Assembly: GCA_030272155.1 (NCBI GenBank)
Contig: CP126191.1
Coordinates: forward strand, 828,501-892,500
Direction of reading: 5' to 3'
Source of the DNA: Tetradesmus obliquus
Taxonomy: Eukaryota; Chlorophyta; Chlorophyceae; Sphaeropleales; Scenedesmaceae
Length of the DNA stretch: 64,000 nucleotides
Positions 1-59,136 of the stretch are shown here, piece after piece (within the stretch, counting starts at the first letter, position 1; every line of letters begins with the position of its first letter). The notes under the pieces are model-generated. The model ran no database searches. It worked only from the letters and a program-made list of their open reading frames with translations, and was not told the DNA's origin. A program made the translations under genes and the position numbers.

Positions 1-352
1 TCAATCCCCACCTGCTGCTGATGATGAACGAGCTTGCTCCTGCTGCTGGCGTGCTGGGCGGCCCTGCTGCTGCTGCTGCTGCTGCTGCTGTACAAGGCAC
101 AAGCAGTGCGCAAGATCCAGCAGCAGCAGCAGCAGCAGCAGCAGTTGGCGGTAAGCGCAAGCGGCCAGCAGCAGGTGCTGCAGCCGCCGATGGCAGCAGC
201 AGCAGCAGCAGCAGGCCTGTTGCTGTTCCTGCAGGCCGCCACATCATAAGTACCCTGGAAGGGGGCAGGTGGTTTGGGCTGTGGCCTACGCAGCGCAGCA
301 AAACAGTGCTGCCCAGCTCCACCTGCGACAGCAGCAGCGGCAACAGCAGCCC

Positions 353-386
<34 letters not shown>

Positions 387-475
387 CTGTGGCCAGATGG
401 CATACTGCCTGTCATGTGGGCAGCCCTGCCGCTGCTGCCAAATGCTGCTGTTCAAGGCGATCCCCAGAGCAGCAC

Positions 476-510
<35 letters not shown>

Positions 511-808
511 GGCAGCGACAGCCGGCAGGTGGTGGGTTAGGTCCAGCAGTGCAGGGCTTGTGCTGTGCAGCTGGTGGCACCATCAGCCTGCTGCCTGCTG
601 CTGCACAGACTGCCACCTGGTGGGTGCGCAGCGAGCCAGCTGCTGGGGCCCCAGCAGCAGCAGCCCCCCCTGCAGCAGCAGCAGCAGCCCCAGCAGCAGC
701 AGCAGCTGCTGTTGCTGCTGGTGGTCCAGCAACTTCGCAAACCAGCGGCAGCAGCCACGGCCTGCAGCGGCAGCAGCAGCAGCAGCAGGACCCACTGCAA
801 GCACAACC

Positions 809-843
<35 letters not shown>

Positions 844-3800
844 GTGGTGGTGAGGAGCGCAGTGAGACGTACCTGCACGTGGTGCCCTGCCCGCCTGATG
901 TGCCCTCCCCTGAGCTGTTCACATGGCAGGAGGTGACACTGGCGCTGAAGCTGCAACTAGTACTGCCACGGCAGCAGCAGCAGCAGCAGGACATGCCTGT
1001 CGAAGGCGCTGGCGCTGCCGCTGCTGCTGCAGCAGCAGCAGGAGGGTCAGCAGCAGCAGCATTGGACGAGCCGTTCTCGCGCCGCTCCTTCAACATGGAT
1101 CTGTTGTATGGCCCTGGGGCCCCTGGATCATCTGCTGCTGCTGCTGCTGCGCAGCCGCAGCCTCCGCGCAGCAGGCACAGCAGCAAGAGCTCGCGCAGCC
1201 GGGCCCCACCAGCAGCAGCAGCAGCAGCAGGGGATGTGCTGAAGCTGAGCGTGCAGCTGCAGGGGCGCTGCCCGCTGTGCTGCCAGATGTTTGGCAGTGT
1301 GGCGGCGCTGGCGGCGCACATGGCCTGCAGCCATGACAAGCTGGGCTGCTGCTGCCCTGATGCTAACAGCATACAGGTGCGACACTTGGCTTCTGCGGTT
1401 GAAGTTCTGTTGCGTTAAGCTGATTATGGTTGGGTGTTTGTAGATGTGCAAGCAATGCAGGTGTTGGCAGTAGGGGACATGTCTGGTCCCGGCGCACATG
1501 GCCTGCAGCCATGATAAGCTGGGCTGCTGCTGCCCTGATGCTGGCAGCATCCAGGTGCGGCACTTCGTTTGGTTGGAGTCCTTTGGCTGTAAGGGAGAGT
1601 GGATGTGTTGTGTGACATGGTGCAGGCAGCAATCAGGTGCGGCCTGTAGCCTGTGTGATGTGACGCCACAAAAGAGACAATGTACCACATAATGGAGGTG
1701 TTTGTTGTGGTGCTGGTGGTACGTGCTGGGTTCAAGTTGTGGTTGGGTTCTTGGTGCATGTGCCGGATACGCGGGTGTTCGCAGTAGGAGACATTTGTCT
1801 TGACCTGGCCGTATGGTGCTGCAGTTAAACACATCATTGATTTGGTCATGCAGCTCTTCCCCTTAGATCCGAATGGTGAAGAGCAAGCATCATATTGTGC
1901 TGCTGCTGATGTTTGTCTGCTGCTGCTGCTGCTGCTGCTGCTGCAGGTGTGGGTGGACGGCAACGCTGAGCAGCAGCAGCAGCAGCAGCCAAACAGGCGG
2001 CGGCGCGGCGATGATGAGCTGGCAGAGTACGAACAGGTGAGGAGGCAGCAGCCAGGGGGAGCGTGTGCGTTTTGCAAACACCCTCAGAACGGCAGCAAGT
2101 GTGTTTGCCTATCTGAGCGATGAGGCAGCAGCCAGGGCGCGTGTGTTGTGCTGTTTGCAAGGGAAACCCCTCAAATCAGGAACTTTAAGCAGGATTGCCC
2201 ACCTCAGAGGTGCTTGGTCACATGCAAATTGCTGTTGCAGCACTGCTGGCATCGCTGCTCACAACAACTCAACACTTATATCGCTCTTTTGCATCACTTG
2301 CCAGGCTGCCAGAAACCCTGCTGACCTTTTGTTTGTTTCGTCACCTGTGTGAACACTTCTGCTTGCAGCCGTACTGCTTCCACCGTCGCTCCATGCTTCC
2401 CCGCCGCCTCAAAGACCTAGGCCTGGCTAAACCCCAGGCCACACAGCTGCTAAACCCCAGCTGGGGCGCGCCGCTGCTGCGCGCGAGCCGCATGGCTGCC
2501 CGGCAGGGTTTAGCCGCTGCTGGGGCAGACGGCAGCGCAGCAGGGTTTAGTTCAGGGCCAGATAGTGGCGCAGTCAGTGACAGCAGCGCTGGGCTAGGGC
2601 TGCTGCACAGCTTGGAAACTGGGAAGGCTCAAAATAACAATCCTGCAGCCAATCTGACAGGCCCTGCAGCAGCAGCAGCAGCAACGGACGGCAAGGGCGG
2701 CAGGAAGCGCGGCACGACGGCCAAGGCCGCCGCAGCAGCCACGCACAAGGGCCGCCAGCAGCAGCAGCAGCAGCAGCAGCGGGGTGCTAAGCCGCCGCTG
2801 AAGCCTGGATCCAAGGCTGCTGCTGCTGCTGCTGCTGCTGGCAAGGCTGCAGGGGGCCAAGGGGCCTTCCCTGTTGCTGCTCGAGGGGGGTTAGGGGTGT
2901 ACTATCACAGCCAGGGCGCGAATGCGCTGGGGTCTGCTGAGCTGGGCAGCGGCTACCAAGATGACGTGGACAAACAGTACCAGCGGGTGAGCGGCGGGTT
3001 GGAAGCGCAAACATCTTATGCATTATCTGTGCTTGCTTTGGCTTCCAGCTGGTCTGTTCTGGCTTCAGGTGAGCCGTCGTGCTTATGTGCGTATTAGCAG
3101 CGGGTGTGTACTATCACAGCCAGGGCGCCAATGCGCTGGGGTCTGCTGAGCTGGGCAGCGGCCACCAGGATGACGTGGACGAGCAGTACCAGCGGGTGAG
3201 GCAGGTTGGGTTCTGACTTTGCTGGATTGCTTTGTGAATGGCAGGATGCTGCCAGTGTGTGCTGCTGCATGTGGCTATGGGGATGACGTGGACCAGGAGC
3301 ACCAGCGGGTGAGCAGGCTGGCAGGTCTTGATGATGGTTTGAGGATTATAATGCCTTAGGGGTTACATGCCTGGATATGTAATTCCATATTGTGCCGCTG
3401 CGTGTGACTGTCAGGATGACGTGGACGAGGAGTACCAGTGGGTGGGCGCATGGCTGGATCTGTTTCCGTGCCTTTTTGCTTATGCTGCTCATGGCTTTGA
3501 TATCCCTGTGATGGCGTGCGGCTGACCATTCAATTGAATCCTGTGTTGCTGCATGCCAGGCGTTTGACCTGCGCGCCTTGTATGAAAAGGCAGACACCAC
3601 ACTGGCTGAGCTACATTGTTTGTGAATCCTCTAAGCAACTGTCGCTGACAATCACTGATAACTCTGCTCCTCGCGCTGCCGGCTGCCAGGTATTTGACCT
3701 GCGCGCCTTCCAAAAAAGCAAACACCACCCTTGACCTTTTCTTTTCTCTAAACCCTGTGTTGCTGCTGCTGAACCCTGCCGAACCCTGCTGCTGCTGTAC

Positions 3801-4241
3801 CAGGTGTTTGACCTGCGCGCCTTCCACGAAAAGGCAGACACCACCCTCGCAGAGCGCCAGCTCATGCTGGCCTGGAATGCCTTCATGAACTGGCCACACC
3901 TGCCGCCACGCCCCAGCAGCAGCAGAGTTCAGCAGGGTTCAGCAGCCGCCAGATCAGGAGCAGGGTTAAGCTACACGCTAACCCCTGATCTGGTGCTCGA
4001 CTGGGCGGCATTCGCGGCGCCGCGCTGCGCACTGCATGCGGCGCTAGAGCGGGTTTATACCGCGCACCTGCTGCAGCTGGCAGGGTTTGGGGTTTTGGGG
4101 GCTGCTGATCTGGCGGCCTGCATGCAGCGGCTGAAGGATGCCAGGGCGGCTGGGGTTCAGGGGCAGGGTTTTATGACAGCACATGAGCTCGGGGTTGTGG
4201 GCGCTGAGGCGGAGGGCTTGGGGTCTGGTGCTGCTGCTGCA

Positions 4242-4272
<31 letters not shown>

Positions 4273-4952
4273 GTGGTAGTGGGACAGTGGCGGAGCGGCA
4301 GGCGTCAGCTGCAGCAGGAGGGCAGAGCGAGGCTGCTGCAGCAGCTACTGCGGAAGCTGCTGCCGCTGCTGCTGCTGACCCCCCTGCAGCTGCTGCTGCT
4401 GCTGCTGCCGTCAGTCAGGAACAGCACCAGGGCAAGCAGCAGCAGCAGCAGCAGCAAGGGAAGCTGCAGGCTTGTGCTGCAGAGGGCAAAACAGCAGAGG
4501 CAGAGCACGGCGGCGCTGCTGCTGCTGCTGCTGCTGCTGGCCAGGGTGCTGCCACACGCCTTGCTGCTGGTCTGGTGCAGGCAGCAGCAGCAGCAGCAGG
4601 TGACAGCGGTGCAGCGCAGCAGGGCAGCACCAAGCCACGGAAGAAGGCGGCATTGAAGCCACAGCTGCAGCAGCAGCAAGACAAGCAGCAACATGCGGAG
4701 CAATGTGCAGCAGCAGCTGCTGAGGTGTCAGGCACAGCAGCAGCAGCAGCAGCAGCAGGCAAGCCGCCACCTGACGACGCTGAACCTATGGATGTTGACA
4801 CAGCAGCACCAGCAGCGGCAGCAGCAGCAGGTGGTGCTGGTGCAGCGCAGCAGGCCAGCACCAAGCCTGGTAAGAAGCAGAAGCAGAACCTGCAGCAGCA
4901 GCAGCAGCAGCAGGAGCAGCTGCTAGGTGCAACAGCTGAGCTGTCAGACAAG

Positions 4953-4990
<38 letters not shown>

Positions 4991-6459: not shown

Positions 6460-6496
<37 letters not shown>

Positions 6497-7151: not shown

Positions 7152-7198
<47 letters not shown>

Positions 7199-7287
7199 AG
7201 GTGTGCTGTGGCGCGGCAGGATGTGGAAAGTCAACAGCCAAGTGGCGCACATTTCTGCTGTTGAAGCGCGCGCTGCAGATGTCACGC

Positions 7288-7327
<40 letters not shown>

Positions 7328-9944: not shown

Positions 9945-12900
9945 CTCCCCCAAGTGCTGCAGCGCAGCAGGCTGCAGTTCCTGCAAGCAGCAACACGCTC
10001 CAGGGATGCTGCTGAGTCAGCAGCGCCGCAGCAAGTGGACCCAAGCGCACGCTTTGACCTGCCGCTGGCGATCGCGCTTGCTGCAGGTCTGGGATGCTCT
10101 GTTACAGCAGGCTTTGTAACAAAGCAGCAGACATCAGCAGTCACTTTAGATTGAAGTTTTTGAATAGAATGAATGCTGCGGTAATCAGGGATGGCATGGC
10201 CAGCAGCAGCAAACTGTGGCACTTCATGCACACAGGCAGCTGGCGGCAACTGCTGGCAAGGCTGCCTCCCTGTAATGTGCACACTTTGCTGATTTTCATC
10301 AGCAGTATCTTGCAGGAACTACAGGCGCGTGTGCGGTCCAGTATCAGCCATTCACCAAGTCCTGCAAGGAAGAGAATTCATGCATGCTGCCATGATGATG
10401 CTGCCGCTGCTGCCCTGCTGATATGACTCAGCAATCACCGTGTTTCACAGCCTATTTCGAATGACTTCAACACGATCCTGCCACTGCTTCTGCTGTTTGT
10501 TGCTTTTTTTCCGCCTGCAGTTGCTTTTCAGGCCTACTTGGAGCCCAGCGGCAGCGAGCAGCAGTACCGGGAGGTGCTGTTAAATGACACGCAAGTAACA
10601 TACACAGACAGGTGCGGGCGTGTGTGCATGGCGCAGCGCTCGGGGCAGTGGCATTGGGATGGACAGCACGGAAGGGATCTGCAGCAGTGCAGGCAGCAGC
10701 AGCAGCACCAGCATGCCTGCCGAAGCGGCGCCACCACACAGCTAGGTCAGCTGCACGAGCTCTCCTGGGGCTGACAGCGGGTAGAAGCATCGGTATACTC
10801 CGGTGATGCAGCTGCAACATCAGTTCCTCCTGGAAGTCTTGCTGCACACCACCTATGTGCGGCGCCCAGCCCCCTGCATGCAGCTCCAGCAGCTCAACGT
10901 GCATTCACCTCCCCTGCCTGCCTGCCTGTTTGCTGCAGCACGTTGCTAGAGTCGGCTGTCAGTGACATGCTGCACTGTCACTGACGTGCCGCACTGTGTT
11001 TTGCTGCTGCCATGGCGGCTGGCTGCAGGGACTTCCTGCTGTCCACCTTTGCCGGCCTGCTGTAAAACAGTGCTATGCGCTGATCGGTTGACATGCCGCA
11101 CTGTGTGTTTGCCGCTGCTGTGGCTGCTGGCTGCAGGGACTTCCTGCTGTCGACGTTTGCTGGCCTGCTGCAGCTGACCATCCACGGCGCAGAGGGCCTC
11201 AAGGCAGTCAACGTGAGCGGCTTGCAGGACAGTCTGATCCTGCTGATGCAGCTGCTTACATACTGCAGCAGGCTTGTGTCAGCTGTGCTGCCTGCTTCTG
11301 CTGATGCAGCTGCCTGCATCATGCAAACAAGTAGATCTGGGACGCTCCCAGCTGTCCTGCGGGCACCTGCGTCATGCCGTGGCGCACCATCATGGCGCAC
11401 CATCATGGTGTGGGGTGCTGTCTGCATGCTAGATGGTTTGCCAAATCCTACACAACTTGTCAACTTGGCTCTTGTTGTCCTTCATCAGCCCGGCAACGCG
11501 TTCCGCCGTACGCACTCTTTCTAACCTGCACCATTGCTGCTGCAGATCACGGGCGGCTCGGACCCCTACGTTGTCGCCACGCTGGGCGACTCCTCCGCCA
11601 CCACCGCAGTACGCTGGGGCGAGCTCAGCCCCAGCTTCGAAGAAACGCACACGCTGTACGTTTCAAACACCCAAAAAGACGTGCTGCGGTTGCGCGTGAT
11701 TGACAAGAACAAGCTCATATCCGATGTGGACCTGGGCGTGGCCATGCTGCCTGTGGCTGCAATCATTGAGCAGCAGGGGCAGCGGCTGCAGCTGGAGCTC
11801 AAGGGTGCGCTGCTTGCTGGGTGTGCTGTAGTTGATAGATTTGTATGTCGAGGTGCTTTTAGTGTGTTGAAATTGGGGCAGGTCTCCATTTGCTGAGCCG
11901 GCTGCAGCAATGAATGCCTACATGCCGAGGACTCTGTTTGCGCTGTGTGATGGGTGGACCTGGCCGTGGCGATGCTGCCGGTTTCTGCTCTGGTTGAGCA
12001 GCAGGAGCAGCGGCTGCAGCTGGAGCTCAAGGGTGCGCTGCTGCGAGCATTGTATTGGTCTATGTGGTCTTTAAGCTGCTGCCTACCTACGTTGTGTGTC
12101 ACACCCTGCATGCTTGCAGGTCACATCTGCTTGCATCATATTGAGCCCTGCATGTGTTGGCGGGTATATGTGCTGTTACTAGTCTCACTGCTGCCGCGCT
12201 GCTGCTGGCCGTGCTGCCCTGCAGGCTCCAACAACGCGCAGGGCAGCCTGACCGTGTCGGCGCAGTTCCTGCCCTTCAGCGAGGCGCTGCTGACAGCGGC
12301 TGTGGCAGACAACACGCAGGTGCGTTTGGCATGGTCATCTGCTTTGTTTGATGGGTGTGGATAGTGGTCCTGCCTTTCAGCGAGGCGCTGCTGCAAGCAG
12401 CTGTGGCGGACGATACGCAGGTGCGTTTGGCAAGGTGGCTTTCGGTGACAGGCTGGTTTTCTGATGAGTGGCTGTATGTTCTGCTGCTGATGCGGCTTTT
12501 GGTTAGAGAATAGGCTCGCCTCAGTTCTGCAGGGAGCAGCTGGCTGCATCATTTGCAAAAGGCACACAGGCAGGTGAGGGAGGGTGGCGATCTGCGGATC
12601 ACATTGCGATGTGCCCTTTTCTGGCAGCTGCCCGCCTGCATTATAGCGAACCTCAGCATGTGCCCCGTGCCTTTGCTGCTGCGTAATCACAGGTGCCTGC
12701 TGTGCCAGACAACAGCCTGGCAGTGATTGAGGAGCAGCTGCCTGGCGTGCTTGAAGATCAGCTGCGGGCAGCGGCTGAGCTGCAGAGGCCGCTTGCACAC
12801 GCATCTCTGGCTAGCTAAACATGCTGTGTTCACTGAACCTCAGCACCTGTGTGCCCTATCACTGCTGCTTCAGGTGCCTGCTGTACCTGACAACGGCCTG

Positions 12901-13261
12901 GCTGTGCTTGAGGATCAGCCGGAGGCAGTCTGACAACAATGAGTGGCCTGGTTGCTGCTGCTGCACGTGCCTGCTGTGCGGTACAACAGCCTCGCCAGGG
13001 TGCACCTAATATGAAATCCTCTGTGCTACTCTGCTTGCTGAGCAGGTGCCTGCTGTGCCAGACAACGGCCTGGCCGTGATTGAGGAGCAGCTGGATGCCG
13101 TGGCTGAGCTGCAAGAGGAGGTGGCGGGCTGCTTCAGCGCACAGGTGAGCAGCAGCAGCAGCAGCAGCAGCGGCTTTTGACTGCTTAGTTGCCAGCCCAG
13201 CGTGCCACTGTGCTGTGGCTGAGCTTCAGGAGGAGGTGGCGGGCTGCTTCAGTGCACAGGT

Positions 13262-13296
<35 letters not shown>

Positions 13297-16200
13297 GCGG
13301 CAGCAGCACTGCGCCAGCGGCACAGCATCAGCAGCCTTTGCGGAGACCGGCCGGCTGGGTTGATGTGAGCCCAGCGTACGTGTGTGTACAGCACAGTGTG
13401 CGGCTGCAGCTGCTTCATGGTAGAGCAATGCTTTTCCTGTGTTTTTCTTCACAATCAGGTGTGTAGTGTATCATAGGCAGCACGCTAAGCGATCACAAGC
13501 TGATGGACTGATGCTGTTCTGATCTTCAGCGCTCTGCGCTTGACACGCAGGCCGGCGCAGTCCAGGCAGAATTGGCTCCAGTAGTGGAACAGGCGGCAGC
13601 AGCAGCAGCACCAGTGGCAGAGACGGTCAAGCAAGCAGTAGCACCTGCAGCGGAGCAGGCGGCAGCTGCAGTGTCGGGTGCGGCTGCTGCTGCAACAACA
13701 GCAGCAGTGGTGGCTGTGGCGGAGGCTGCGGCTGGTGCGAGTGCGGCAGATGGCAAGGCGCCTGCGCTGGGGCAGGTTGTTGAGGGCGCAGCAGAGCAGG
13801 CAGTGCAGGTATGGAGCGGGCTGAACTAACAAAATAGTTATGAGTCTGCCTTGCAAGCAGCATGGCTTGTTGTACCGTCCCCTTGGTGTTTCGTCCTATG
13901 TTTGGGTGGAACGGTTCCAGGAGCAAATCCTTTGCAGGTGTCCATCTTGCGTGCAGTGCATCTGCAGCCTGACTGCATTCAAACATCACTGTCAACGTTT
14001 TCTGACGCTGCGTGTCGCACATCGTGCGCGTTTGACACTCTTGTGTGTCCTGCAGACGCTGACAGGCGCGCCAGATGTCTTTCAGGGGGCTGGCTCAGTA
14101 GCACTGTCACCACCATCATGCCTGCTGCTACATGATATCTGTCATCATGCCTTTTCTGCCTCGCAGACGCTGACCGGCGCGCTGGACCGACTGCAGGGGC
14201 GGTTGCAGCAGCGCGGCCTGAGCCAGCAGGCTGATGCCATAGGGGGCGCCACCATTGTGCCTGCCGTCACTTGTCTTCTGTTGATCACGCTCTGTATTTG
14301 TGTCATTTGTGTCCTGCGAACGCTGACGGGCGCTCTGGATCGCCTGCAGGGCCGGCTGCAGTTCAGCACTGGCACCACCATCATGCCTGCTGTCACTTGT
14401 CTTTCTGTTGATCACGCTCTCTTGTTTGTGTCATTTGTGCCCTGCAGACGCTGACGGGCGCTCTGGATCGCCTGCAGGGCCGGCTGCAGCAGCGCGGCAT
14501 GAGCCAGCAGGCTGACGCGATTGGGGGCGCCAAGCAGAGCCTGGTGGGCAAGGTCAACGAGGCGGCAGGCAACATCAAGAGCTACGTGCAGGTTGGTCGC
14601 ACAGCTGCTGCTGCTGCTGTCTCACTTCAGCGATGTATGCAGCGGTTGCTTCTGAAATGTCGCTCAGCGTACAAGCGCACGCACCCCATGCTGATGCATG
14701 TGCCAGCCCCGCCGCTGCTGCTGCTGTGTTCAAATTCTCAGCCGCTGTAGCCTCAGGACAACCCTTGGCTGCGCTGCTCCTGCCGCGCTTTGGTTTCTCT
14801 GCCACTGGTGCTGCTGATGGTTCAACCGCCTGAACGCTACATCATACGCAGTCTGAGGGGCTCAGCTCGTTGCCGGTGACAGACCTGCAGGCCATCATCT
14901 CCCGCATTGCCGCCAGCAGGGCAGCAGCAGCAGCAGCAGGCAACACAAGCAGCAGCTCACCAGATGCAGACACTACAGACGCAGCAGACGCTGCTGCTGC
15001 TGCTGCTGGGGCTGAGTCAGCCATGCCTACATTAGCACCTGAGCAGATGCCTGGTGCCTGGAAGGCGCTGGCGTCTGTGGCTGGGCGCATGGTGGAGGAT
15101 GTGTTCAGGCCTATCGCATTCATTGATAACCCCACCACAGACACGCAGGTGAGCCCTCCGGTCTGGGTCGGAGTGCAGTGAAATGAGTGGCTGGGCGCAT
15201 GGTGGAGGATGTATTCAGGCCAGTGGCGTTCATTGACAACCCCACCACAGACACACAGGTGAGGGTGTGTGCAGGCCTGCAACTTTCTGGGGTGGAGTGG
15301 GGTTGCAGGCAGTGGCTGGACGCATGGTGGAAGATGTGTTCAGGCCGGTGGCTTTTATTGAGAACAACACCACAGACACGCAGGTGGGGATGTGTGCTGC
15401 GGCCTGCAGTTGCCGGGTGGGGTGCAGTCAGTTGCTGGGCGCATGGTGGAGGATGTGTTCAGGCCGGTGGCTTTTATCGAGAATAACACCACAGACACAC
15501 AGGTGAGCCCTCCAGTCTGGGTTGTTGTGCAGTCCGTAAGTGGCTGGCAGGATGGTGGAGGATGTTTTCAGGATGTGTTCAGGCATGTGATCTGCATTGA
15601 CAACCCCACCCCAGACACGCAGGTGAGGATGTTTGCGGGTATGCATTGGCCAGGTGGGGTGCAGTCGGTGGCTGGCTGCATGGCGAAGGATGAGCTCAGG
15701 CCTGTGGCGCTAGAATGAAAACAACAGCACCATCACACAGGTGATGGTGTCTGCAGGCCCATGTTCCAAGGTTGGATGGGACATGCAGCAAACGGCGCAG
15801 CGTCCCTTGGCTTGGCGTCCCCCGTTTCTGCAGCTGCCAAGTTTTTATGTGTGCAATGCATTTCTGCAGCGTCCACATGCGTAAAGGGTCGGTGAGCTAG
15901 GCTGCAGCAATTGTTGTATGGCTCGCTGCCATGTGCCGGCAAACAGCTCAGCATCCCTGCCGCTCAACTAAGAATGGCTGCTGCTGCCGCCGCTGCTGCT
16001 GCTGGCCAGGTATGGGTGCATGTCAGCAGAGAGCTGCGAGAGGTGGTGGTGGCCTTCAGGGGCACGGAGCAGGTGGGTCGGTGTGCCTGCACGGATCTGC
16101 TTCAGTTGCACAGCATTGTTATACAGTGCGCTCTGCATGTGCTCAATCAGGGCAAGCTGGAAATGCGCACAGTCTGATGAGTGTGCCGTCACAAACTGCA

Positions 16201-21126: not shown

Positions 21127-21655
21127 ATGTAGGCCATGCAGCAGCAGACTTTGGGAGCTGCAGCGGCGGCAGCAGCAGCAGGAGAGGAGGGCAAGGCAGC
21201 AGTTGCAGAGCCAGCAGCAGCAGCGGCCATGTATTGGTCAAGGAAGCAGTGCTGGCAGCAGACCCTGCACTTGCCGGGCAGGTGCAGCAGGCGCTGCAGG
21301 CGGCAGCAGACAAGGTGGCGCAGCCCGCGGCTGAGTCAGCAGCAGCAGCAGCACCAGCCTCTCGATGAGCAGGGCAGCAGCAGTGATGTAATGCAAGCAG
21401 CTGCAGACTTTGGGAGCTGCTGCTGCAGCAGCAGCAGCAGCAGGAGGAGGAGAGGAGGGTAAGGCAGCAGTTACAGAGCCAGCAGCAGCAGCAGCAGCCA
21501 TGCATGCGATGATCAAGGAGGCAGTGCTGGCAGCAGACTCCGCATTGGCCGGGCTGGTGCAGCATTCGCTGCAGGCGGCAGCAGACAAGGTGGTGCCGCC
21601 AGCGGCTGAGTCAGCAGGGGCAGCAGCACCAGCAACACCAGCACAGCGATGAGTG
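21127..21655 (+). repeat. Two further copies of the lipase terminal exon, each with its own stop
   Basis: The C-terminal segment KEAVLAADPALAGQVQQ through the stop is repeated at about 21236-21368 and 21508-21652, with a roughly 110-bp Ala-rich spacer that is also repeated. The second extra copy is in frame with an open GGGEEGK-containing stretch. They may be 3' UTR or alternative 3' exons. Confidence 0.85.
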
Positions 21656-29157: not shown

Positions 29158-29247
29158 CGTGCTATGTCATGCCCAGCACCCACCTCGTCAGCCTGCGACC
29201 AGCCAGCACAGCTTGATGGCTCAGACTTGATCACAAACCGCTGCTGC

Positions 29248-29288
<41 letters not shown>

Positions 29289-29379
29289 CCGTGCTATGTC
29301 ATGCCCAGCACCCACCTCGTCAGCCTGCGACCAGCCAGCACAGCTTGATGGCTCAGACTTGATCACAAACCGCTGCTGC

Positions 29380-43733: not shown

Positions 43734-46700
43734 ACGTCAACCACCTGGCCCCCTCCCTACACGCTCACTCGGCTGCTGGAGAGGAAGTTTTTGATGTGTT
43801 TCTGTCACTTCTGTTTCTGTCACTTCTGCTGCTGGAGAGGAAGTTTCTGATGTGTTTCTGTCACTTCCGCTGCTGCTGCCGCAGGTGAACCACCTGGGCC
43901 CCTACATGCTGACTCTGCCAGTGCAGAGGAACCTGCTTACATGTTCCTCTCCCTGCTGCTGCTGCTGCCCCTGCAGGTGAACCACCTGGGCCCCTACACG
44001 CTGACGCGGCTGCTGGAGCAGAAGTTGGTGGCCAGCAAGGCGCGCGTGGTCAACGTGGTCAGCGTGACGCACCGCATCACCACCATCAGGTGGGTTGAGA
44101 TGACTGTAGAAAAGTAGTATTGTAGTAGCTTCCGGCTGAGCTGTTTAGCAACACGTGATGTGGTGGTTTGTGGTCAATGTGGTCAGGGTGACGCACCGCA
44201 TCACCACCATCAGGTGAGGCAGTGAGGTGCATCTGCCAGCCCCCCGGGCACTCATCAGCTCATCAAGCTAGCTCCTGCTTTCTCAATAGCCTACCTGGAG
44301 GCTCAATGAAGGTCATGAGGTGCACATGTGTATTGTTCTCTTGTCTTATTGCCACTGGGCTTGTGCCAGCTGCTGATTTTTAGCTGACATGCTCGCGCTG
44401 TTGTGTCGCGAACGACTGTCACGATGCAGGGACGCCAAGGCGCTGTTCACCGACTGGAAGGGCGGCTTCTACCAGCACAACAAGCTGGCTAACGTGTACA
44501 CAGCCTTCGAGTTGCAGCGCAGGTGCGGATGTGATTGAGCTGCAGCACATGTAGATCTGCCAGAGTCAGTGGCTATGCATACATATTTGGCCACAGCTGC
44601 TTTGCACTTGCTGGCCAACGTGTACACAGCCTTCGAGCTGCAGCGCAGGTACGGCTGTGTGATTGAGCTGCTATAAGTCCGGCTGTGGATACATGTTTGG
44701 CCACAGCTGCTTTGCGCTTGCTGGCCAATGTGTGGTCCCCGAGCTGCAGCACAGGTGCGGCTGTGTGTTTGAGCCGCAGCGCACAATTGCTGCGTGAATG
44801 AATCCAGCCACAGCTTGGTGCATGCTGCGCTGCACCGCGCAACAAAAGGAGTCGCAGCGGGCAACCCTGGCGCTGACTGAAGTGCTGGTTGTGACAGAGC
44901 TTTGGCAGGAAGTAGCATAGCAGCCAGTACAGTCCAGCAGCTGTGCACCCAACCCCCTATCCTTGCAGTGTGGAACCAATGAGTGTGCTGCCTGCCTTCA
45001 GCCGCCAATTGTAATTGTCGCTTCAACCAGCTGTCATCTACTCAATTCTACATCCTGCACTTGGCGTGGCCTGTCGCTGCAGGCTGGGTGCGTGGGGCCT
45101 GCAGGCCGTGGCTGCCTGCCCTTAACCAGCCGCCATTGATCTCACTCCTACTGTGCTGCATGCTTTGTGTGTCCCTGCAGGCTGGGCGCACTCGGTCTGC
45201 AGGCCTAAGCTGCCTGCTTTTCACCAGCTGCCATGTATCTCACTCCTACTTTGCTGCACATGTTCATCGTGGTTTGCTGCAGGCTGGGTGCACGGGGCCT
45301 GCAGGCCGTGGCCGCCGACCCCGGCGCTGTGCGCACCAACATCTACAACAACAGTCCCAAGCTGGGCCGCGGCTTCATCAAGACCATGATCGACAACTGC
45401 TACGCGCCACCAGAGGACGGCGCGCAGGTACGGCTGCTGCTGTTGTTGCGTGGCTTAGCTGCCTTTCTGGTATCGTTACGCAGCAGCCTAGATCGACAAC
45501 TGCTATGCGCCACCAGAGAACGGCGCGCAGGTGCGGCTGCTGCTGTTGGGGTTATTGACATGCAGCAGCCTAGATCGACAACTGCTGTGCGCCACCAGAG
45601 GACGGCGCGCAGGTGCGGCTGCTGCTGTTGGGGTTATTGACATGCAGCAGCATAGATCAACAACTGCTACGCGCCACCAGAGGACGGCGCGCAGGTGCGC
45701 GTGTGGCTGCGCTGTAGCAAGAGTGTGCATGCATTTTGTCATGCAGCAGGAAAGGGCCGCAGGAGGTGCACGTGTCGCAGTGTTGTGAAGCGTATGCATG
45801 TGGCATGCTAGCAGCATTCACTGTGCAGCAAGGGGAGTTTGCAGGAAAGTCCTGCAGCATCAGGGCAGCAATGTGTAGCAGGCACCTGCATTCACATGTG
45901 CTAAAATCAAGCATGAACCAAATGATCAAACTGCCGACCCCGCAGGCGGTGATCTACGCGGCCACCTGCGACTGGGCCGCCGACCAGCGCAAGCGCAAGG
46001 ACGGCTCGCCCCTGCAGCCGGCGGAGGACCTGCGCTACTACGCGCGCGGCGTGTTCACCTGGCCCCAGGTATGTCAGGATTTTCACTGTATGTACTGCAA
46101 ATTGGTGTTGTCCACTGCTGTAGATGTTTGCCTTGCTGTGCATGCCGCGTGTTCACCTGGCCGCAGGTGCGTGCTGCGCTTGCAACACGTCGCGTAATGT
46201 GCCTTACTTCAAAGAAAATCTGCTGCTTGTTTCCCTTGCTGTGCACGCGGTGTGTTCACTGAGTTGTACGCGCATGCCCTGTGGCGCCTTGAGAGCAAGC
46301 AGCAGCACTGCAGCGCAGGCATATGCTGAAGCGGGCATCAATCTGGAACGTTAGTTGGGTTTGCTGTGCACTGCTGACACATGTGTGCGCTGCTGCTGCT
46401 GCTGCTGCTGCAGCTGTGCAACGACTGGGCGCTGGGCGGCAAGGGCATCAAGAAGGTTAAGGGAGACATCTGGGGCGCCAGCACCGTGGTGCTGTCCTTC
46501 CTGGATTGGCCACTGCGCAGGTGGGTGTGCTGCAGGGCTGTGCTGCCGCATGTGCATGTGGTAACTTGGAATGTTGGGGGTTGTGTTTCGAATGCTGTGT
46601 TTGGTGGTGGTGCTCAGCTTCCTGGACTGGCCGCTGCGCAGGTGGGGTGCCGCAGCGCTATGCTGCTGCACATGCACGTCAGCATATGATCAAAGTGGTC

Positions 46701-47139
46701 TGTGGGTCAAATGCTGTTAACATGGAGTTTTCAGAATTTTTAGCTGTGTTTTGGTGGTGGTGCTCAGCTTCCTGGACTGGCCACTGCGCAGGTGAGGGGC
46801 TGCAGTGCTGTACTGCAGCTGGGCTGGTGCTATGCATGTCCGGCACTTATGTATGCATGTGCGGCACTTCTGTTTGCATAATGTGTGGCACGTGTCGGCT
46901 ATCGCATCTTGTGTAGCTGCGTGCGTTGTTGTGCATAGGATGTCGGTGAACTCCCTGTGCGCGATCCCTGCTGCTACTGCTGCTGTTGCTGCTGCTGCTG
47001 CAGGCTGCTGGGCAACGGCCTGATGGGCAAGACCAAGCTGTGCAGGCCGGGCAGCCACGCGTATGACGCAGACATGTCGGCGCAGGTGTGGGAGGCCAGC
47101 GCGGAGTTTGCCGGCGTGCCTGTGCAGCCACAGGTGTAG
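37289..47139 (+). CDS. Short-chain dehydrogenase/reductase, retinol-dehydrogenase-like, 9 exons
   Basis: Phase-consistent exons: 37289-37370, 37664-37733, 37996-38182, 43977-44089, 44430-44522, 45283-45427, 45946-46068, 46414-46520, 47004-47139; 351 residues. Classical SDR motifs are all present: Rossmann TGATSGIG (12-19), NNAG (92-95), NHLGPYTLT (115-123), Ser142 in VVNVVSVTH and YQHNK (Tyr165, Lys169), then ADPGAVRTN. The family reduces or oxidises carbonyl/alcohol groups with NAD(P)H; the NHLG and PG.V.T features fit the retinol-dehydrogenase/WWOX-like branch. Substrate is unknown. No transit peptide is obvious before the Rossmann fold. The third intron is 5.8 kb and houses two LINE copies and two tRNA genes. 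A TGTAA motif at 47460 may end the transcript. Confidence 0.9.
38366..39178 (-). mobile_element. LINE copy 1: 3' end only
   Basis: About 810 bp nearly identical to the 3' end of LINE copy 2. It codes the last ORF2 segment (VLQEAKQQAVLRFWELLADF, then PAHWRVAVPGDHPFL, ending at 38934) followed by a roughly 570-bp 3' UTR ending near a TGTAACAGACCTC motif. It is 5'-truncated, as is typical of LINE retrotransposition, and lies antisense in the dehydrogenase intron. Confidence 0.85.
39216..39389 (+). repeat. tRNA-Asp cassette with conserved 5' flank (copy 1)
   Basis: About 100 bp upstream of the tRNA (from CCGCTGCTGCTGCTCCAGCC) matches the flank of the second tRNA at 43345-43441 with few differences. 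The duplicated unit therefore includes flank as well as the tRNA gene. Confidence 0.8.
39318..39389 (+). tRNA. trnD-GTC: tRNA-Asp (GTC)
   Basis: A 72-nt cloverleaf: acceptor GTCGCCG/CGGTGGC (two G-U pairs), D-arm GTATAGTGGTCAGTAT, anticodon loop with GTC in CCTGTCACG, T-arm CCGGG-TTCAATT-CCCGG and discriminator G73 as in eukaryotic tRNA-Asp. No intron. A T-run (CTTTGTCTTTT) follows as Pol III terminator. Confidence 0.95.
39990..43215 (-). mobile_element. LINE (non-LTR retrotransposon) copy 2, 5'-truncated
   Basis: Antisense in the dehydrogenase intron. Reverse-transcriptase motifs are visible on the - strand: MGVGPEFCKWVKLLLTN, RQGCPLSPLLYLF and FADDTQVYLRS, then a long connection region and a zf-RVT-type C-terminus (WRLVMDGLPTSQR, CMCGAACPGLVHHFWECP), ending RSDPAQLRIVLAPRSG at about 40623. 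The frame is broken: a stop just before RQGCPL (about 43058), a frame change near 41810-41876 and a stop near 41037. No endonuclease domain remains, so the copy starts within RT. The style fits L1-like LINEs of volvocine and other chlorophyte algae. It cannot be autonomous. Confidence 0.88.
40383..40452. repeat. Small insertion in the LINE 3' UTR bounded by TGTGACAT direct repeats
   Basis: Relative to LINE copy 1, copy 2 has about 68 extra bp here. They are flanked by the 8-bp direct repeat TGTGACAT, which is present once in copy 1. The insert begins with CATCATCATCATG and contains GCCCCGCGCCCC. It looks like a short element with a target-site duplication. Confidence 0.65.
43205..43310. repeat. 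Tandem GAGAGGCTTGTTACAGG units at the LINE 5' junction
   Basis: Three copies of a unit like GAGAGGCTTGTTACAGGAG lie between the LINE copy 2 5' end and the tRNA flank. The last is followed by AAGGCAAGCTATCACC. The same motif (GAGAGGTCTGTTACAGGGGT then GGGCAAGCTAT) forms the 3' terminus of both LINE copies, so these may be remnants of other LINE ends. Confidence 0.65.
43442..43513 (+). tRNA. trnD-GTC: tRNA-Asp (GTC)
   Basis: Identical in sequence to the gene at 39318-39389, with the same conserved upstream flank. It lies in the same dehydrogenase intron, 460 bp before exon 4. A TTTT run follows within 20 bp. Confidence 0.95.
43733..43925 (+). repeat. Two shadow copies of the 5' end of dehydrogenase exon 4
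   Basis: VNHLxP-coding segments occur at 43733-43795 and, with an acceptor CAG, at 43882-43922. They precede the intact exon at 43977. A 45-bp internal repeat (TTTCTGTCACTTCTG) links them. Confidence 0.85.
44178..44216 (+). repeat. Shadow copy of the 3' end of dehydrogenase exon 4
   Basis: The VTHRITTIR coding stretch with a GTGAGG donor recurs about 125 bp after the real exon end at 44089. Confidence 0.87.
44603..44760 (+). repeat. Two shadow copies of the 3' end of dehydrogenase exon 5
   Basis: LANVYTAFELQRR-coding sequence recurs at 44608-44648 and, degraded, at 44722-44756. Donors GTACGG and GTGCGG are retained. The catalytic YQHNK is not included in the copies. Confidence 0.87.
45078..45215 (+). 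repeat. Two shadow copies of the 5' end of dehydrogenase exon 6
   Basis: Acceptor-bearing copies of the RLGARGLQAVA start occur near 45080 and 45176. The second runs into a TAA. Confidence 0.87.
45485..45696 (+). repeat. Three shadow copies of the 3' end of dehydrogenase exon 6
   Basis: The IDNCYAPPEDGAQ segment recurs with ends at 45530, 45612 and 45693 (spacing 103, 82, 81 bp), each keeping a GTGCG donor. The middle copies share a 60-bp intronic spacer. Confidence 0.9.
46136..46264 (+). repeat. Shadow copies of the 3' end of dehydrogenase exon 7
   Basis: A VFTWPQ-coding copy with GTGCGT lies at about 46140-46167. A more decayed version with the preceding CTTGCTGTGCACGC flank lies near 46232-46262. 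Confidence 0.8.
46596..46796 (+). repeat. Two shadow copies of the 3' end of dehydrogenase exon 8
   Basis: The VVLSFLDWPLRR segment recurs at 46600-46639 and 46752-46791 with donors GTGGGG and GTGAGG. Both are well preserved although intronic. Confidence 0.9.
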
Positions 47140-50997: not shown

Positions 50998-52129
50998 GCG
51001 TAGGTAGTGATAGATTATTACTAGCTGCACATCGCCACCATACTCCTCCAGCTCCAGCCCCTCTGACATTATGCCATTCCTTGCTCTCTCGGTTGATTGC
51101 CATGCTTGGAAACTAATTCAACAATCACACACGTTTGACAAAGCACCTCATCAAGACCGTGTTTGCTGCACTACAATGTGTGGTGTGCAACAACAGCAGG
51201 TGACACCCACCTGCAGCAGCAGCGCCTCCTCTAGTGCGTCCAGGCCCTGGCCCTTCCGTGCTGCTGTCTCCACCAGCTGCACGTCCCCGCCATACTCCTC
51301 CAGCTCCAGGCCCTCAGACAGCAGCTGCAGCTTCACCTGCTCAATGCGCGCCTGCAGAAAATGAAAATGGCACAAACAGCAACATATGGGTGGCTGAGAC
51401 GAATGAGATTGGGCTGAGACTGGGATTGTTTCAAAGACCCCCCAGAGTAAGAAAAAATATGGTTGGCAGCACACGGGTGCTGAGCTGCCTGCCTGTCTGT
51501 TTGGCTTCCTGCTGCAACAAATTCAGCAGCTGCAAGTTCAAACATTCACAACATGAAAAAGTAACACATGTGTGAGAGGCCTCACCCGGGGCAAGTCACA
51601 CTTTGTCAGTGCCACCACCACCAGCACCTGCCTGCTTGTCTGCATGGCTTCTGCTGAGGCAGCATCTGCAGCTCGTACTTAACACTACAACATCACAAAG
51701 TAACACATGTGTAACATATCCCACCTGGGGCAGGTCACACTTGGTCAGCGCGACCACCACCGGCACCTGCCTGCTAGTCTGCATGGCTTCTGCTGAGGCA
51801 GCATCTGCAGCTCGTACTTAACACTACAACATCACAAAGTAACACATGTGTCACATATCCCACCTGGGGCAGGTCACACTTGGTCAGCGCGACCACCACT
51901 GGCACGTGTGCGGCACGGGCGTGTGCCAGCGCCTCACGCGTCTGTGCCATCACTCCATCATCGGCAGCTACCGCAAGCACCACAATGTCGGTTGCTGCTG
52001 CTCCGCGCGCGCGCATGGCGCCGAATGCTGCGTGGCCGGGGGTGTCTAAGAAAGTGAGGCGCTCGCCGCTGCCGGGCATGACAACTTCAAAGGCGCCGAT
52101 GTGTTGTGTGATGCCGCCGGCCTCTGCAG

Positions 52130-52185: not shown

Positions 52186-52787
52186 CGACAGCAGCAGAGC
52201 ACGCACAGCTTTAGCTTTGGCAAGACGCCACAAGACAAAGCAGGGGACACAAGAGGCAGCAGCAGAGCATAAATAAACTTGGTTGTGACAATATGGTCCA
52301 CAGCATGCTGTTCAACGCACCTCCCGCAGTCACGTTTGACCAGCGCAGCGCATCCAGCAGACTGGTCTTGCCATGATGTACATGGCCCATCACCGTCACC
52401 ACAGGTGGACATAAACCGCACAGCTGACCAGCATCCAGTTTGCAACTAGCAACTACAAATAGATCATTCGGGGCAAAACAATATATCAGTGGAGGTCAAA
52501 CATAAGATGCGATGTATATTTCCTAAACATAACTCAACGCTTTCACAATACTGGTTTAAACAACGCACCTCCTGCAGTCACGTTTGAGGAGCGCAGTGCA
52601 TCAAGCAGACTGGTCTTGCCATGGTCAACATGGCCCATCACCGTCACCACTGGCGGGCGCGGCGCTGCTGCTGCTGCTGCTGCTGCTGCTGCGGCGGCAT
52701 CTTCTGGAGGCCTCAGCAGAATCTTGCCGAACTCAAGCGCTGCCAGCTCAGCAGATTCGAGTGAGACGACGTCCTCGGCTGCACAGC

Positions 52788-52853: not shown

Positions 52854-55031
52854 CATCACGTCAAAATTAAGCAGAATCGTGCCCAAGTCGAGCGCTGCCA
52901 GCTCAGCTGATTTGAGTGAGACCACATCCTCGGCTGCAGGGAGAGAAGGGACGTCCGCAAATCAGCAGCAGCAGCAGCAGCAGCAGGGGCAATAGAATCA
53001 TTAAGAATCTGCCAAAATCAAACGCTGCCAGCTCAGCTGATTTGAGCGAGACCACATCCTCAGCTGCAGGGAGAGAGGGGGTATTTGTAGAAAGCAGCAG
53101 CAGCAGCAGCAGGGGCAGTGGTATCGTTCAGGATATTGCCAAACTCGAGCGCTGCCAGCTCAGCTGATTCCAGCAACACCACATCCTCGGCTGCAGAGAA
53201 AATGGCAGGAGGATTGCAGACAGCAGCAGCAGCAGGGGAAGCAGATGTAGTCAAGAGAGCCAGCATCCTCAGCTGCGTGACGAGGTGCAAGGCAGGTGCA
53301 ACAAGCCCCGGTTGCATGCCAACCACCACCACACGGCTCAACTACAGCACAAACCACAAGTTGTCATTATGTTTCACTTTAGTAACAGCTACATGACTGT
53401 TACGCCAGTCACCAACCTGATTGCAGCTCCTCTCCCAGCTGCTCCTGCAGCAGGGACTCCCGCTGTGCCAGTTCAGCACCCAGCAGCAGCGCCAGCTGCT
53501 GCACAAAAAGCACATGCCTGTTATCAAGTCAATTTGTAACATTTGTAAGAGTTATAACACATCCTCACCTGACTGCAGCTCTTCTCCCAGCTGCTCTTGC
53601 AGCAGGGACTCCAGCTGTGCCAGCTCAGCACCTAGCAGCAGCGCCAGCTGCCGCACAGAGCACATTGCAGGCATCTGAACCTCTTGCAACTGCCGCTGAC
53701 CGCTGCTGCTGCTGCTGCTGCTGTCGGCCGCACTAGCTGCACCGAAGTTCTGCTGCTGCTGCTGCGTGTGCAGCTCGTCGTCGGATTCGGAGTCTGTTTC
53801 GGAGTCAGACAGCAGGTCATCTGCTGCTGCTGCTGCTGCTGCTGGATCAGTGTCGCTGCCTGGTTTGGCCTGCTGCAGCTGCTGCAGCTTGCTCGCCCAG
53901 CGACTGCTGGCGGCGCTGCCCGCTGCTGCGGCGGCTGCAGCAGCAACACATACATACGACAGGGTTGGCGTACATACAACAGCGTGGCTACACAGCGAGA
54001 AGGAAGAGCAATTTGGGGGATGTGAGCATGCGGCACGCGGTGTGGTTTATGACCATATAATGCATATGGCAGGATGGGAGACATGTATGTATACAATGGT
54101 GCAGGGCGTGGCACAAGACAGCACTTGGCACTGATTGAGCGGTCATATGTAGAGGCGCCGATCCCAGCTGCCTGCATGCTTGCATGTATAAGAACGAATT
54201 TACACATCCTCCGAGCCCTCACGGACCGCAGTGGATGCGAAACTGCGCATTCAAGCAAAGCTGAGCCACAAGACCTCTCGTCCTAAGTCTCCTGGCCATC
54301 CGCGTAGGGTGCAGCTGGTGCATGCAGGCATAGCACTCGTCAGCGTGGCTGGCATGTAGGCTTAGCATGTGCTGCAGCCAGAGGAGCAAGGCAGAATGAC
54401 TGCTCACATGCCAGGGTGCGGCAAACTTAGCTTTAGATGCAACAAAAGCACAGCGCTGCACAACACAAACCCACCTGCTCTCCGCGCAGCTTTCTTCTCA
54501 GCCTTTGCCGCTGCTGCTGCTGCCAGCCCAGCCTGCTTGCCCTTGGCCTTCACTTTCCTTCGCTTTGCTGCAGCCGCCTTTGCATCCAACCCCTCATCAA
54601 CTGCAGACTCCTGCTGCTTGCCGCGCCCTGCTGCTGCCGCACTACTGCTGCTGCTGCTGCTGCCGCCGATGTTTTGCAGTAGCGCCCTCATGCGCGCCTC
54701 TGTCTCTTGCTCTAGCTGCCAGCTGGCAGCAGCAGCAGCAGCAGCAGCTGCTGCGTCTGGTGCTGCTGCAGTTGGCGTTGCTGACCAGGAACCAGACGGC
54801 GTCTGTGTAACTGCAGCTGACTCTGCTGCTGTTGGGGGCCGAGAGACAGCGGCCCACGCACGGTCTGCTGCAAACTGCTGCTGCTGAACATGCTGCTGCT
54901 GCTGTTGCTGCTGCTGCCACGAGCCAGACAACACATCCGCAATGCCACTACTGCTACTGCTGCTGCTGCTGCTGTCTGTGGCGGCAGTGGAGCGGAGCAG
55001 CTCAGCGTCTTGCAGCAAGGCACCCAGACCC

Positions 55032-57422: not shown

Positions 57423-57454
<32 letters not shown>

Positions 57455-57523
57455 GGATGGCTCAGAAGGTGCTGCATCAGCAGGCCTCGTCTGCAGCTGT
57501 TTCAGGTAAGCTGCCCAGCCAGA

Positions 57524-57563
<40 letters not shown>

Positions 57564-57622
57564 GGAAGTGTGTCCCCTGCCTGCCAATGATCCAGCCGCT
57601 GCTGCTTATGCTGCCTGTGCTT

Positions 57623-57661
<39 letters not shown>

Positions 57662-58462
57662 CTCTGCAGCCTCACCTTCCGCATGCAGCTGCTGCAGGCG
57701 CCGCCGTGGCCGTCCCTGCTGCTGCTGCTGCTGTTGCTGCGCCTGGCGCGTCTGCTGTTGCGAAGCCCAGTACTGTGTTACCGCGCTTTGTTTTTGCTGC
57801 TCTCGCTGCAACTCTTGCTGCAGTTCTGAAGCCCCAGCTTGCCTGGCCCTCCTTCGCAGCTGTTTGTAAATAGAAGCCACCTCACGCTCATAAGCTTCTG
57901 GCGCCTCGCCTGCTGCTGCTGCTGCTGCTTGTGGGGGCGGCAGGGGTTTAGGAGACAGCACCATCCTAAACCCTCCTGGAAGCTCGACAGGCACAGCTGC
58001 CACATCAGCAACTGTCACGCCAGCTGGCTGGTTCTGCTTGACTTGCCATGATGATGAGGGCAGTGCAGCACCAGCAGCAAGCTGCTGCAGCAAGCTCTGC
58101 ACACCTGCCTGCTGCTGCTGCTGCTGCTGCTGCTGAGCTGCACTGCTGCTGATGCTGCTGCTGCCATTGCTGCCACTGGACGGGCTTGGCTCCTGTGGCA
58201 GCCGCCGCTGCAGCATCTGCTGCATGTCCTGCCATGAGGGTGGATCCTGACCCAACCCACTGCTGCTGCTGCTGCCGGTGCTGCTGCCGCTGCTGCTGCT
58301 GCTGCCGTTGCTGCTGCTGCTGCCAGCCATCATCTGTGTCATGTGACCTAAGCTGGATGCAGCAGCAGAGCCTTGCCGCAGCACATGCTGCCCTTCAGCA
58401 GCAGCAGCAGAGGGCTCACTTGAGTGTATGTGCAGGCGTTGCTGGAAGCTGTGGCTCGCCCC

Positions 58463-58500
<38 letters not shown>

Positions 58501-59136
58501 GCCGCCCGGGGCTCACACTGCGGCCAGGGCTGAAGGTTTGGCTACTGCTGAGGCTGTGGCTGGTGGCAGCTGCCACGTCAGCATGGCAGCTGGCGGCTGG
58601 CTCAGTGCTACTGCCAGCAGCAGAGGGTGCAGCAGTGCTGCTGCTGCTGCTAGGGTTGCTGGCGTGCTGCTGCAGCTGAGCAGTGCCTGCAGTGCCTGCA
58701 AGAGTGGTGGCGTTGATTCCCAGCATGGGCAGTGATCAATGAGTGATAGATGACAAAATATCACGTCATTATAATCATGCACAGCGCAAACATACTGCCA
58801 GGCTGTGGAGTGTGGAAACTACAGTTCAATACAGCATGCAGTTGACAGCAGCACAGTACCCACTGGGTAACCCGGCACCGCAGCAGCGACGTGGGCAGCT
58901 GCGCTGCTTCAGATTGGCTTACCTGACGTACTTCCTTCATATTGAATGGCAGCTGCGTCCTGTGCACCGTGATCTACACCATTAGTGCTACCACTTGCCG
59001 CAGCGGCGTCTTTGCAGAACGTTCTCGCAACAGCTTCGCATGCAGCTTGTTCGATTGCAATGCTACCGTTCTGCAAAAGACTGCTGGCCCGCTTCAGCTC
59101 GCTGCCCAGCAGCGTTTTGCATGCCGCTTGTTTCAT
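48536..59136 (-). CDS. infB: Organelle-type translation initiation factor IF-2, very long N-terminal extension
   Basis: Ten phase-consistent exons on the - strand: 59136-58923, 58695-54475, 53934-53569, 52778-52569, 52123-51864, 51351-51211, 50938-50873, 50612-50517, 50182-49929, 49451-48536; 2247 residues against 700-1050 usual. GTPase motifs: GHVDHGKT (1649-1656), [11 protein letters not shown] (switch I), DTPGH (1697-1701), TKCD (1751-1754, in place of NKxD). Later domains match IF-2: [27 protein letters not shown] and [14 protein letters not shown], with a complete C-terminal fMet-tRNA-binding region. The protein is nuclear-encoded and acts in plastid or mitochondrial initiation; the N-terminus ([20 protein letters not shown]) could be a transit peptide. 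Exon 2 codes about 1400 residues of Gln/Ser/Ala-rich sequence carrying short helical motifs. The start at 59136 follows an in-frame stop. Confidence 0.92.
50941..50998 (-). repeat. (CTG)n tract abutting the IF-2 exon 7 acceptor
   Basis: About 18 CTG units on the gene strand lead directly into CCAG and exon 7 at 50938, occupying the place of a polypyrimidine tract. Confidence 0.88.
51024..51067 (-). repeat. Shadow fragment of IF-2 exon 6
   Basis: About 40 bp matching the part coding [12 protein letters not shown] lie in the intron after exon 6, next to the (CTG)n acceptor tract of exon 7. Confidence 0.75.
51585..51790 (-). repeat. Two shadow copies of the 3' end of IF-2 exon 5
   Basis: The [14 protein letters not shown] segment with its donor recurs at 51720-51768 and 51586-51634. 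Each comes with the same 70-bp flank (CTTCTGCTGAGGCAGCATC), so the unit is about 135 bp. The nearer copy preserves TKCDLPQ. Confidence 0.9.
52129..52182 (-). repeat. (CTG)n tract abutting the IF-2 exon 5 acceptor
   Basis: About 17 CTG units on the gene strand end in TTCTGCAG, the acceptor of exon 5 at 52123. Confidence 0.88.
52302..52407 (-). repeat. Shadow copy of the IF-2 P-loop exon end with a changed G1 motif
   Basis: The 3' end of exon 4 ([20 protein letters not shown]) recurs in the next intron reading GHVHHGKTS, with the GTGCGT donor intact. The intact P-loop lies in exon 4. Confidence 0.9.
52789..52851 (-). repeat. (CTG)n tract before the IF-2 exon 4 acceptor
   Basis: About 21 CTG units on the gene strand precede TGTGCTGTGCAG, the acceptor of exon 4 at 52778. 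Confidence 0.88.
52858..53200 (-). repeat. Three shadow copies of the 5' end of IF-2 exon 4
   Basis: Segments coding AEDVVSLxSAELAAL with the CAG acceptor lie at about 52864-52938, 53000-53068 and 53125-53195, upstream on the gene strand of the used exon at 52778. Spacing is about 130 bp and each is separated by a CAG-rich spacer. Confidence 0.9.
53413..53512 (-). repeat. Shadow copy of the 3' end of IF-2 exon 3
   Basis: About 90 bp coding [20 protein letters not shown] recur in the next intron with a GTTGGT donor, 150 bp after the real exon end at 53569. Confidence 0.88.

Follow-up and report, generated by a model that had tools for sequence, protein, structure and literature searches.

Head-to-tail copies of coding-exon edges recur in introns and 3' flanks of sampled Tetradesmus obliquus genes

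Several genes in a 64,000-nt stretch of the genome of the green alga Tetradesmus obliquus (C1:828501-892500, hereafter the window) have introns that contain degraded repeats of the edge of the exon next to them. This raises the question of whether such copies are a chance feature of one locus or the trace of a recurrent process and, if the latter, what produces them and why they persist. Two known phenomena involve related arrangements: introns can be gained by tandem duplication of a segment carrying AG/GT, and in tandem exon duplication, as with mutually exclusive exons, exon sequence is repeated within a gene.

We analyzed a 277-kb sample consisting of the window, 43 stretches picked solely by Lipase_3 or proteasome Pfam matches, and six random 10-kb loci, all drawn from a genome of 104,662,953 bases in 17 contigs (GCA_030272155.1, given as 104.70 Mb, 17 contigs and a GC of 56.5 in the available text of PMC12571836). 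Genes were modelled with a single custom gene finder, on which all intron and edge counts depend; its training set consisted of 50 Pfam hits, and it recovered 93% of the bases of these same 50 hits. A splice cost of -8.5 was adopted, -5, -7 and -9 being compared by Pfam recall and by visual inspection of a lipase gene. A self-trained gene finder, which drifted toward CTG/CAG runs, was dropped. Thirteen copy-like exons were removed from the first gene models before counting, and filtering left 59 genes and 176 introns. In the window, Pfam matches identify a C2 plus Lipase_3 gene, a piece of a short-chain dehydrogenase and an IF-2 gene, while no Pfam match was obtained for the protein encoded at 43977-47139. 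The gene finder missed one lipase exon near 16010-16072; with this exon added by eye, the lipase exons located between about 16010 and 19435 give a single continuous Lipase_3 match. The window also holds, at 3735-7445 (+), a 1236-aa open frame with many CAG-type runs, whose internal repeats near 4573-5383 are spaced by 231, 207, 147 and 120 nt, each a multiple of three.

To detect copies, 60 nt of each exon edge were compared with the adjoining intron (score of at least 36). A match to the terminal 60 nt of the upstream exon was found inside 42/176 introns and one to the initial 60 nt of the downstream exon inside 36/176, as against 0/880 length-matched introns of other genes and 0/176 reverse complements for each edge type; the excess of intron-to-flanking-exon matches over controls that the original prediction put forward as a genome-wide check was thus found in the sample. 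Exon bases lying 60-120 nt away from the edge were matched in only 5/139 and 2/139 cases. Introns with either type of copy amount to 18/27 in the window, 31/122 in the Pfam-chosen loci and 13/27 in the random loci, that is, 44/149 outside the window, and 19 of the 80 edges of Pfam-anchored exons have a copy. Two further random loci, a small replicate with seven introns, gave one donor and one acceptor hit. Copies cluster by gene, at least one being present in 26 of the 48 genes with four or more edges (overdispersion 2.4). Self-comparison of the masked window yielded 99 direct pairs, most of them less than 500 bp apart, and no inverted pair, and a sensitive self-comparison of the whole sample yielded 365 direct pairs less than 1 kb apart; shuffled sequence gave 27 direct pairs, whatever their distance, and inverted pairs numbered 66 in the sample and 33 in the shuffles. 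Exon-edge copying is therefore confirmed as real and recurrent across the sampled genome. CTG runs were considered as a cause of the copies and rejected, as they are not enriched. Across the whole sample, exons at copy-bearing edges have a GC of 0.636, compared with 0.620 at other edges (p 0.001).

In the window, the search listed 47 copies, 32 donor-type and 15 acceptor-type, on 24 exon edges (Table 1). Two of them, at 21240 and 21515, are copies of a stop codon whose exon end had been mis-called, and one, at 20734, is weak (identity 0.76); without these three, the count still exceeds the 40 originally claimed. Copies were also predicted in five of seven genes. This proportion was not reproduced, edge copies being present in three of the five modelled window genes with introns, and it becomes plausible when the pairs in unmodelled stretches are counted.

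Table 1. Exon edges, their copies and stop-codon copies in the window
Feature	Position	Strand	Identity or source
Acceptor-type copy, start of exon 11137-11212 (C2-domain lipase gene)	11029..11062	+	identity 0.91
Donor-type copy, end of exon 11546-11804	11954..12032	+	identity 0.87
Donor-type copy, end of exon 12225-12319	12368..12420	+	identity 0.87
3 acceptor-type copies, start of exon 13046-13144	12693..12996	+	pipeline list, array printout
Donor-type copy, end of exon 13046-13144	13211..13259	+	identity 0.92
2 acceptor-type copies, start of exon 14448-14591	14167..14374	+	identity 0.88, 0.98
Intact exon heading donor-type array	15047..15148	+	
5 donor-type copies of exon 15047-15148, all ending CAG/GTG	15187..15740	+	
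Acceptor-type copy, start of exon 16374-16497	16295..16320	+	
2 donor-type copies, end of exon 16374-16497	16645..16940	+	identity 0.96, 0.93
3 acceptor-type copies, start of exon 17530-17716	17095..17451	+	
Intact Lipase_3 exon (GHSLGGALA), copies on either side	17530..17716	+	
5 donor-type copies, last ~70 nt of exon 17530-17716, each before GTGCG, 107-114 bp apart	17753..18260	+	
2 acceptor-type copies, start of exon 19295-19435	19081..19225	+	
2 donor-type copies, end of exon 19295-19435	19578..19920	+	identity 0.96, 0.91
2 donor-type copies, end of exon 20126-20296	20383..20534	+	
Lipase gene last exon, TGA stop ends at 21109	20930..21109	+	
2 stop-codon copies of lipase gene: last ~126 nt of CDS, stop and 3' flank; spacing 256, 278	21240..21650	+	
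Donor-type copy, end of exon 43977-44089	44170..44213	+	identity 0.95
Donor-type copy, end of exon 44430-44522	44610..44648	+	identity 0.95
2 acceptor-type copies, start of exon 45283-45427	45083..45205	+	
3 donor-type copies, end of exon 45283-45427	45491..45694	+	identity 0.95-0.97
Short donor-type copy, end of exon 45946-46068	46144..46166	+	
2 donor-type copies, end of exon 46414-46520	46607..46791	+	
2 donor-type copies of IF-2 gene exon 51864-52123	51588..51769	-	
Donor-type copy of IF-2 gene exon 52569-52778	52321..52408	-	
Donor-like pair, coding-like piece ending CAG/GTGAGG, outside gene models	53415..53665	-	by eye
Donor-like pair, coding-like piece ending CAG/GTGCG, copy 178 bp downstream, outside gene models	1312..1593	+	by eye
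Donor-like pair, exon end before GTGAG, copy 209 bp downstream, outside counted introns	2894..3209	+	by eye

Over the whole sample, 169 hits were reduced to 164 by a low-complexity filter and to 152 by requiring a position within 20 nt of the edge. These 152 copies (88 donor, 64 acceptor) belong to 81 of the 352 edges, with one to six copies per edge. Successive copies are spaced by a median of 125 nt (IQR 108-147, 5-95% range 92-259), a wider distribution than the 80-125 bp first proposed from the window. In the 16 arrays that we printed, the units are contiguous and head to tail; visual inspection showed that copied donors continue into intron sequence and that copied acceptors are preceded by intron sequence. 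The exon part of the unit has a median of 48-50 nt and a maximum of 92 nt among the 135 copies spaced 50-220 nt, and the intron part a median of about 74-80 nt, donors and acceptors behaving alike. An intron part shorter than 45 nt was found at 3/45 edges (expected: 41%), and the units are placed within a narrower range than a uniform distribution would give (KS p 7e-5, calculated on 86 non-independent copies). Edges with copies make up 64/218 for exons of 80-220 nt, 13/95 for exons of at least 220 nt and 4/39 for exons below 80 nt, a relationship that depends on binning (p 0.10 with a split at 250 nt; p 0.003 for the post hoc comparison of 80-220 nt with at least 220 nt). The median length of copy-bearing introns (65 by this criterion) is 539 nt, or 251 nt once the arrays are subtracted, compared with 312 nt for the others. 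Among three similar lipase genes on contig C8, two acceptor copies occur in one and are absent from the other two; the intron end and exon of the copy-bearing gene resemble those of its nearest sister, where this sequence is single. An intron of a lipase paralog on this contig (C8:1658274-1661618) also contains a 42-bp minisatellite (1005-1219 of locus L002), for which the two sisters show no counterpart in their aligned intron.

Copying is not restricted to edges that carry a splice site. A downstream copy was detected for 6/34 called CDS ends, as compared to 1/1122 crossed controls; one of the six proved to be a mis-called donor edge, leaving 5/33. In these five cases and, as judged by eye, in the window lipase gene, the copies span the coding end, the stop codon and the 3' flank. 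The nearest stop copies of the six genes are spaced by 99, 108, 108, 89, 258 and 256 nt, with coding parts of 36, 27, 55, 36, 109 and 126 nt, respectively. With few cases at hand, the rate at CDS ends (5/33) does not differ from that at splice edges (81/352; p 0.38). Both stop-codon copies of the window lipase gene are still open to a TGA. In a proteasome beta gene, the protein stops where the solved chain stops, ahead of its copies. At CDS starts, a very small sample, 0/7 have a copy. Splice sites are thus not required for edge copying, since stop codons are also spanned in six genes. In the sampled genes, the adjoining intron or 3' flank often contains head-to-tail copies of short pieces straddling a coding-exon edge; these copies are apparently ignored by the cell and decay.

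A focus on edges could in principle be produced by selection alone: tandem duplication would strike the genome at random, exonic duplications would be purged and intronic ones would fade faster, so that those at edges would stand out. Tandem pairs are indeed present in unassigned DNA, which holds 14 of the 50 strong arrays of the sample (at least 80 nt and at least 80% identity) and where 69/1326 windows repeat. Moreover, as long as copy-bearing introns are not separated from the rest, repeats are as frequent in interior windows (109/575, or 91/411 with a 250-nt target) as at edges. In a denser interior scan, 264 of the 287 hits fell in copy-bearing introns, where copy-to-copy matches may mix with independent duplications, and 23 elsewhere; among introns without an edge copy, 7/108 have any interior hit. 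When the 176 introns were classified by BLAST, 27 had donor copies, 22 acceptor copies, 18 both, 4 interior repeats only and 105 none, two introns with 'wrong-way' pairs being entered in the last class. Edge copies thus occur in 67 introns versus 4 with interior repeats only, whereas a simulation of random tandem duplication with age and decay, slowed on the exon side, predicts an edge/interior ratio of 0.75-1.0; in a second simulation half of the detected duplications lie at edges, which gives the observed 67/71 a P of about 4e-16. The strong arrays tell the same story, with 32 across an exon edge, one exonic and three intronic, these three consisting of a copy-to-copy match, a 42-bp minisatellite and an unclear case (a coding-score test applied to the strong arrays did not discriminate). 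These data support an edge focus in excess of the random-duplication-with-decay null, as the claim of tandem, recurrent copies focused on exon edges implied, and we regard random duplication as an unlikely explanation.

About as improbable, in our opinion, is a process acting at the splice junctions themselves, for instance through R-loops or spliceosome-linked breaks, that would duplicate the surrounding DNA. It would agree with the way the units hug the junction, at donors and acceptors alike, with a placement narrower than uniform. On the other hand, six genes have similar units that span a stop codon, and the rate there does not differ from that of splice edges, albeit on few cases. As the stop-codon copies lack a splice site, a process focused on exon-intron boundaries, as originally suggested, looks too narrow as a cause; the edge focus itself stands. 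A filter acting on splicing only likewise fails to explain the scarcity of short noncoding parts, as this scarcity is also observed for the nearest stop copies of the six genes.

Could the copies be maintained by selection as alternative exons, decoys or splicing signals? Many of their splice sites are intact and strong: the GT is preserved in 75/88 copies and the AG in 54/64, and the score of the copy site equals or exceeds that of the true site at 28/43 donor and 16/38 acceptor edges. Furthermore, copy-private dN/dS, at 0.48-0.55, is below 1, with values of 0.55 for the closest copy (from 18 S and 30 N) and 0.49 for the other copies (0.13 for exon-private changes), and exon-to-copy pN/pS is 0.28, or 0.33 with transition bias, where about 0.5 is expected if only the copy drifts. 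The closest-copy dN/dS and this low pN/pS count against strict neutrality. The dN/dS of the other copies also includes exon changes, since an older copy differs as well at sites where the exon had changed by the time a younger copy formed; such mixing can account for copy-private dN/dS, and for pN/pS only partly. Against a function, use of the nearest copy would cause a frameshift at 58 edges and an in-frame stop at 20, leaving an open frame at 3, so that the frame is broken at 78/81 edges, and gaps within copies are frame-breaking in 26 cases versus frame-keeping in 3. Nearest-copy offsets are evenly distributed modulo 3 (23, 28 and 30 edges for 0, 1 and 2). The splice dinucleotides are kept no better than the neighbouring bases, the fractions above being near the 0.865 expected from the identity of 0.93 beside the edge. 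The proposal that the copies serve as a source of alternative exons is therefore not borne out, and a functional role seems to us very improbable.

Introns born from tandem duplication of exon DNA around AG/GT, the other origin envisaged at the outset, would likewise account for the tandem units and for the AG/GT at many copied edges, yet a newborn intron would begin with the sequence of the next exon and end with that of the preceding one, whereas the copied donors run into intron sequence in the 16 arrays inspected by eye, which leaves this origin with hardly any credibility. An assembly artefact, to which tandem arrays are generally prone, is just as implausible given the median divergence of about 10% between copies and exon and the presence of copies in the window, in Pfam-chosen loci and in random loci.

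The reading that we favor, and consider probable, is that recurrent tandem duplications of about 125 bp that include coding DNA persist where the innermost splice site or the first stop codon lets the extra copy be ignored. The duplications, mostly spaced by 90-150 bp, take in about 25-90 nt of coding edge along with a mostly longer noncoding piece, and one would persist only if its extra copy stays out of the protein. Downstream of an exon, the first donor would have to be chosen, upstream of it the last acceptor, and past the CDS the first stop would end translation; the skipped copies decay and make introns longer. Site use is deduced here from protein homology. In four proteasome genes, models that skip the copies align without gaps to the chains of 7qve at 10 of 11 copy-bearing joins, the eleventh (residue 186 of the C6 gene) showing a 13-residue insertion in the query. 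The claim that the intact exon is always the innermost copy is partly a product of the way the models were built; independently of them, homology agrees with it at these 10 joins. Competing splice sites are decided in favor of the nearest pair, either across the exon (exon definition) or across the intron (intron definition), according to the accessible part of PMC9225289. Innermost sites winning at both ends would be what exon definition predicts, because the closest sites across the exon are then preferred; in that part of PMC9225289 the proximity rule was established with an alternative-splicing database and minigenes, whereas we deduce it from the copy that has remained intact. Exon definition is also expected mainly at short exons, and the support that exon length lends to it varies with the bins chosen.

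Persistence of ignored copies leaves aside where the duplications arise. The far greater involvement of coding edges than of intron interiors suggests that the duplicating process is linked to coding sequence or to its edges and not to splice sites as such. More tentatively, we propose a lineage-specific process aimed at coding edges (donor, acceptor and stop), with breakpoints mostly 25-90 nt inside and mostly at least 45 nt outside; introns and 3' flanks would grow from decaying edges, and the arrays would record the choice of the innermost site.

How do these copies compare with known systems? They share with AG/GT intron gain a tandem duplication at AG/GT, but here existing introns are lengthened and the content of the unit is different. 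As in tandem exon duplication, exon sequence is repeated, but mostly its edges only (a copy extends to the other end of the exon in 3/152 cases), and the open frame expected of mutually exclusive exons is a rarity among nearest copies. The copies are direct, head to tail and a short distance apart, like small tandem duplications. The available text of PMC8355091 attributes the latter to break repair, by fill-in of staggered breaks and end joining. The likeness is that a short stretch is duplicated head to tail; by contrast, the insertions described in that text are short (<100 bp) and in human DNA, and we saw no connection with coding edges in it. Among the matches listed by a literature search drawing largely on papers outside subscription, none described exon-edge copying.

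Edge copying may help to explain how introns grow and how splicing finds the right site. If the sampled rate holds genome-wide, it would provide a concrete route of intron lengthening and a mutational process tied to coding edges, as well as thousands of natural experiments with duplicated splice sites in which exon versus intron definition could be tested in the organism. Gene annotation would also be affected, the first gene models having called 13 copies exons.

Other repeats were encountered in the sample. In the window, a 55-bp minisatellite whose copies are about 97% identical occupies 61114-61607, with adjoining arrays at 60222-60768 and 62201-62827, and an identical 82-bp repeat flanks a CTG run on both sides at 29158-29371. 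Elsewhere, locus L064 contains at 2589-3215 a 184-bp direct repeat whose two copies are 100% identical and 443 bp apart.
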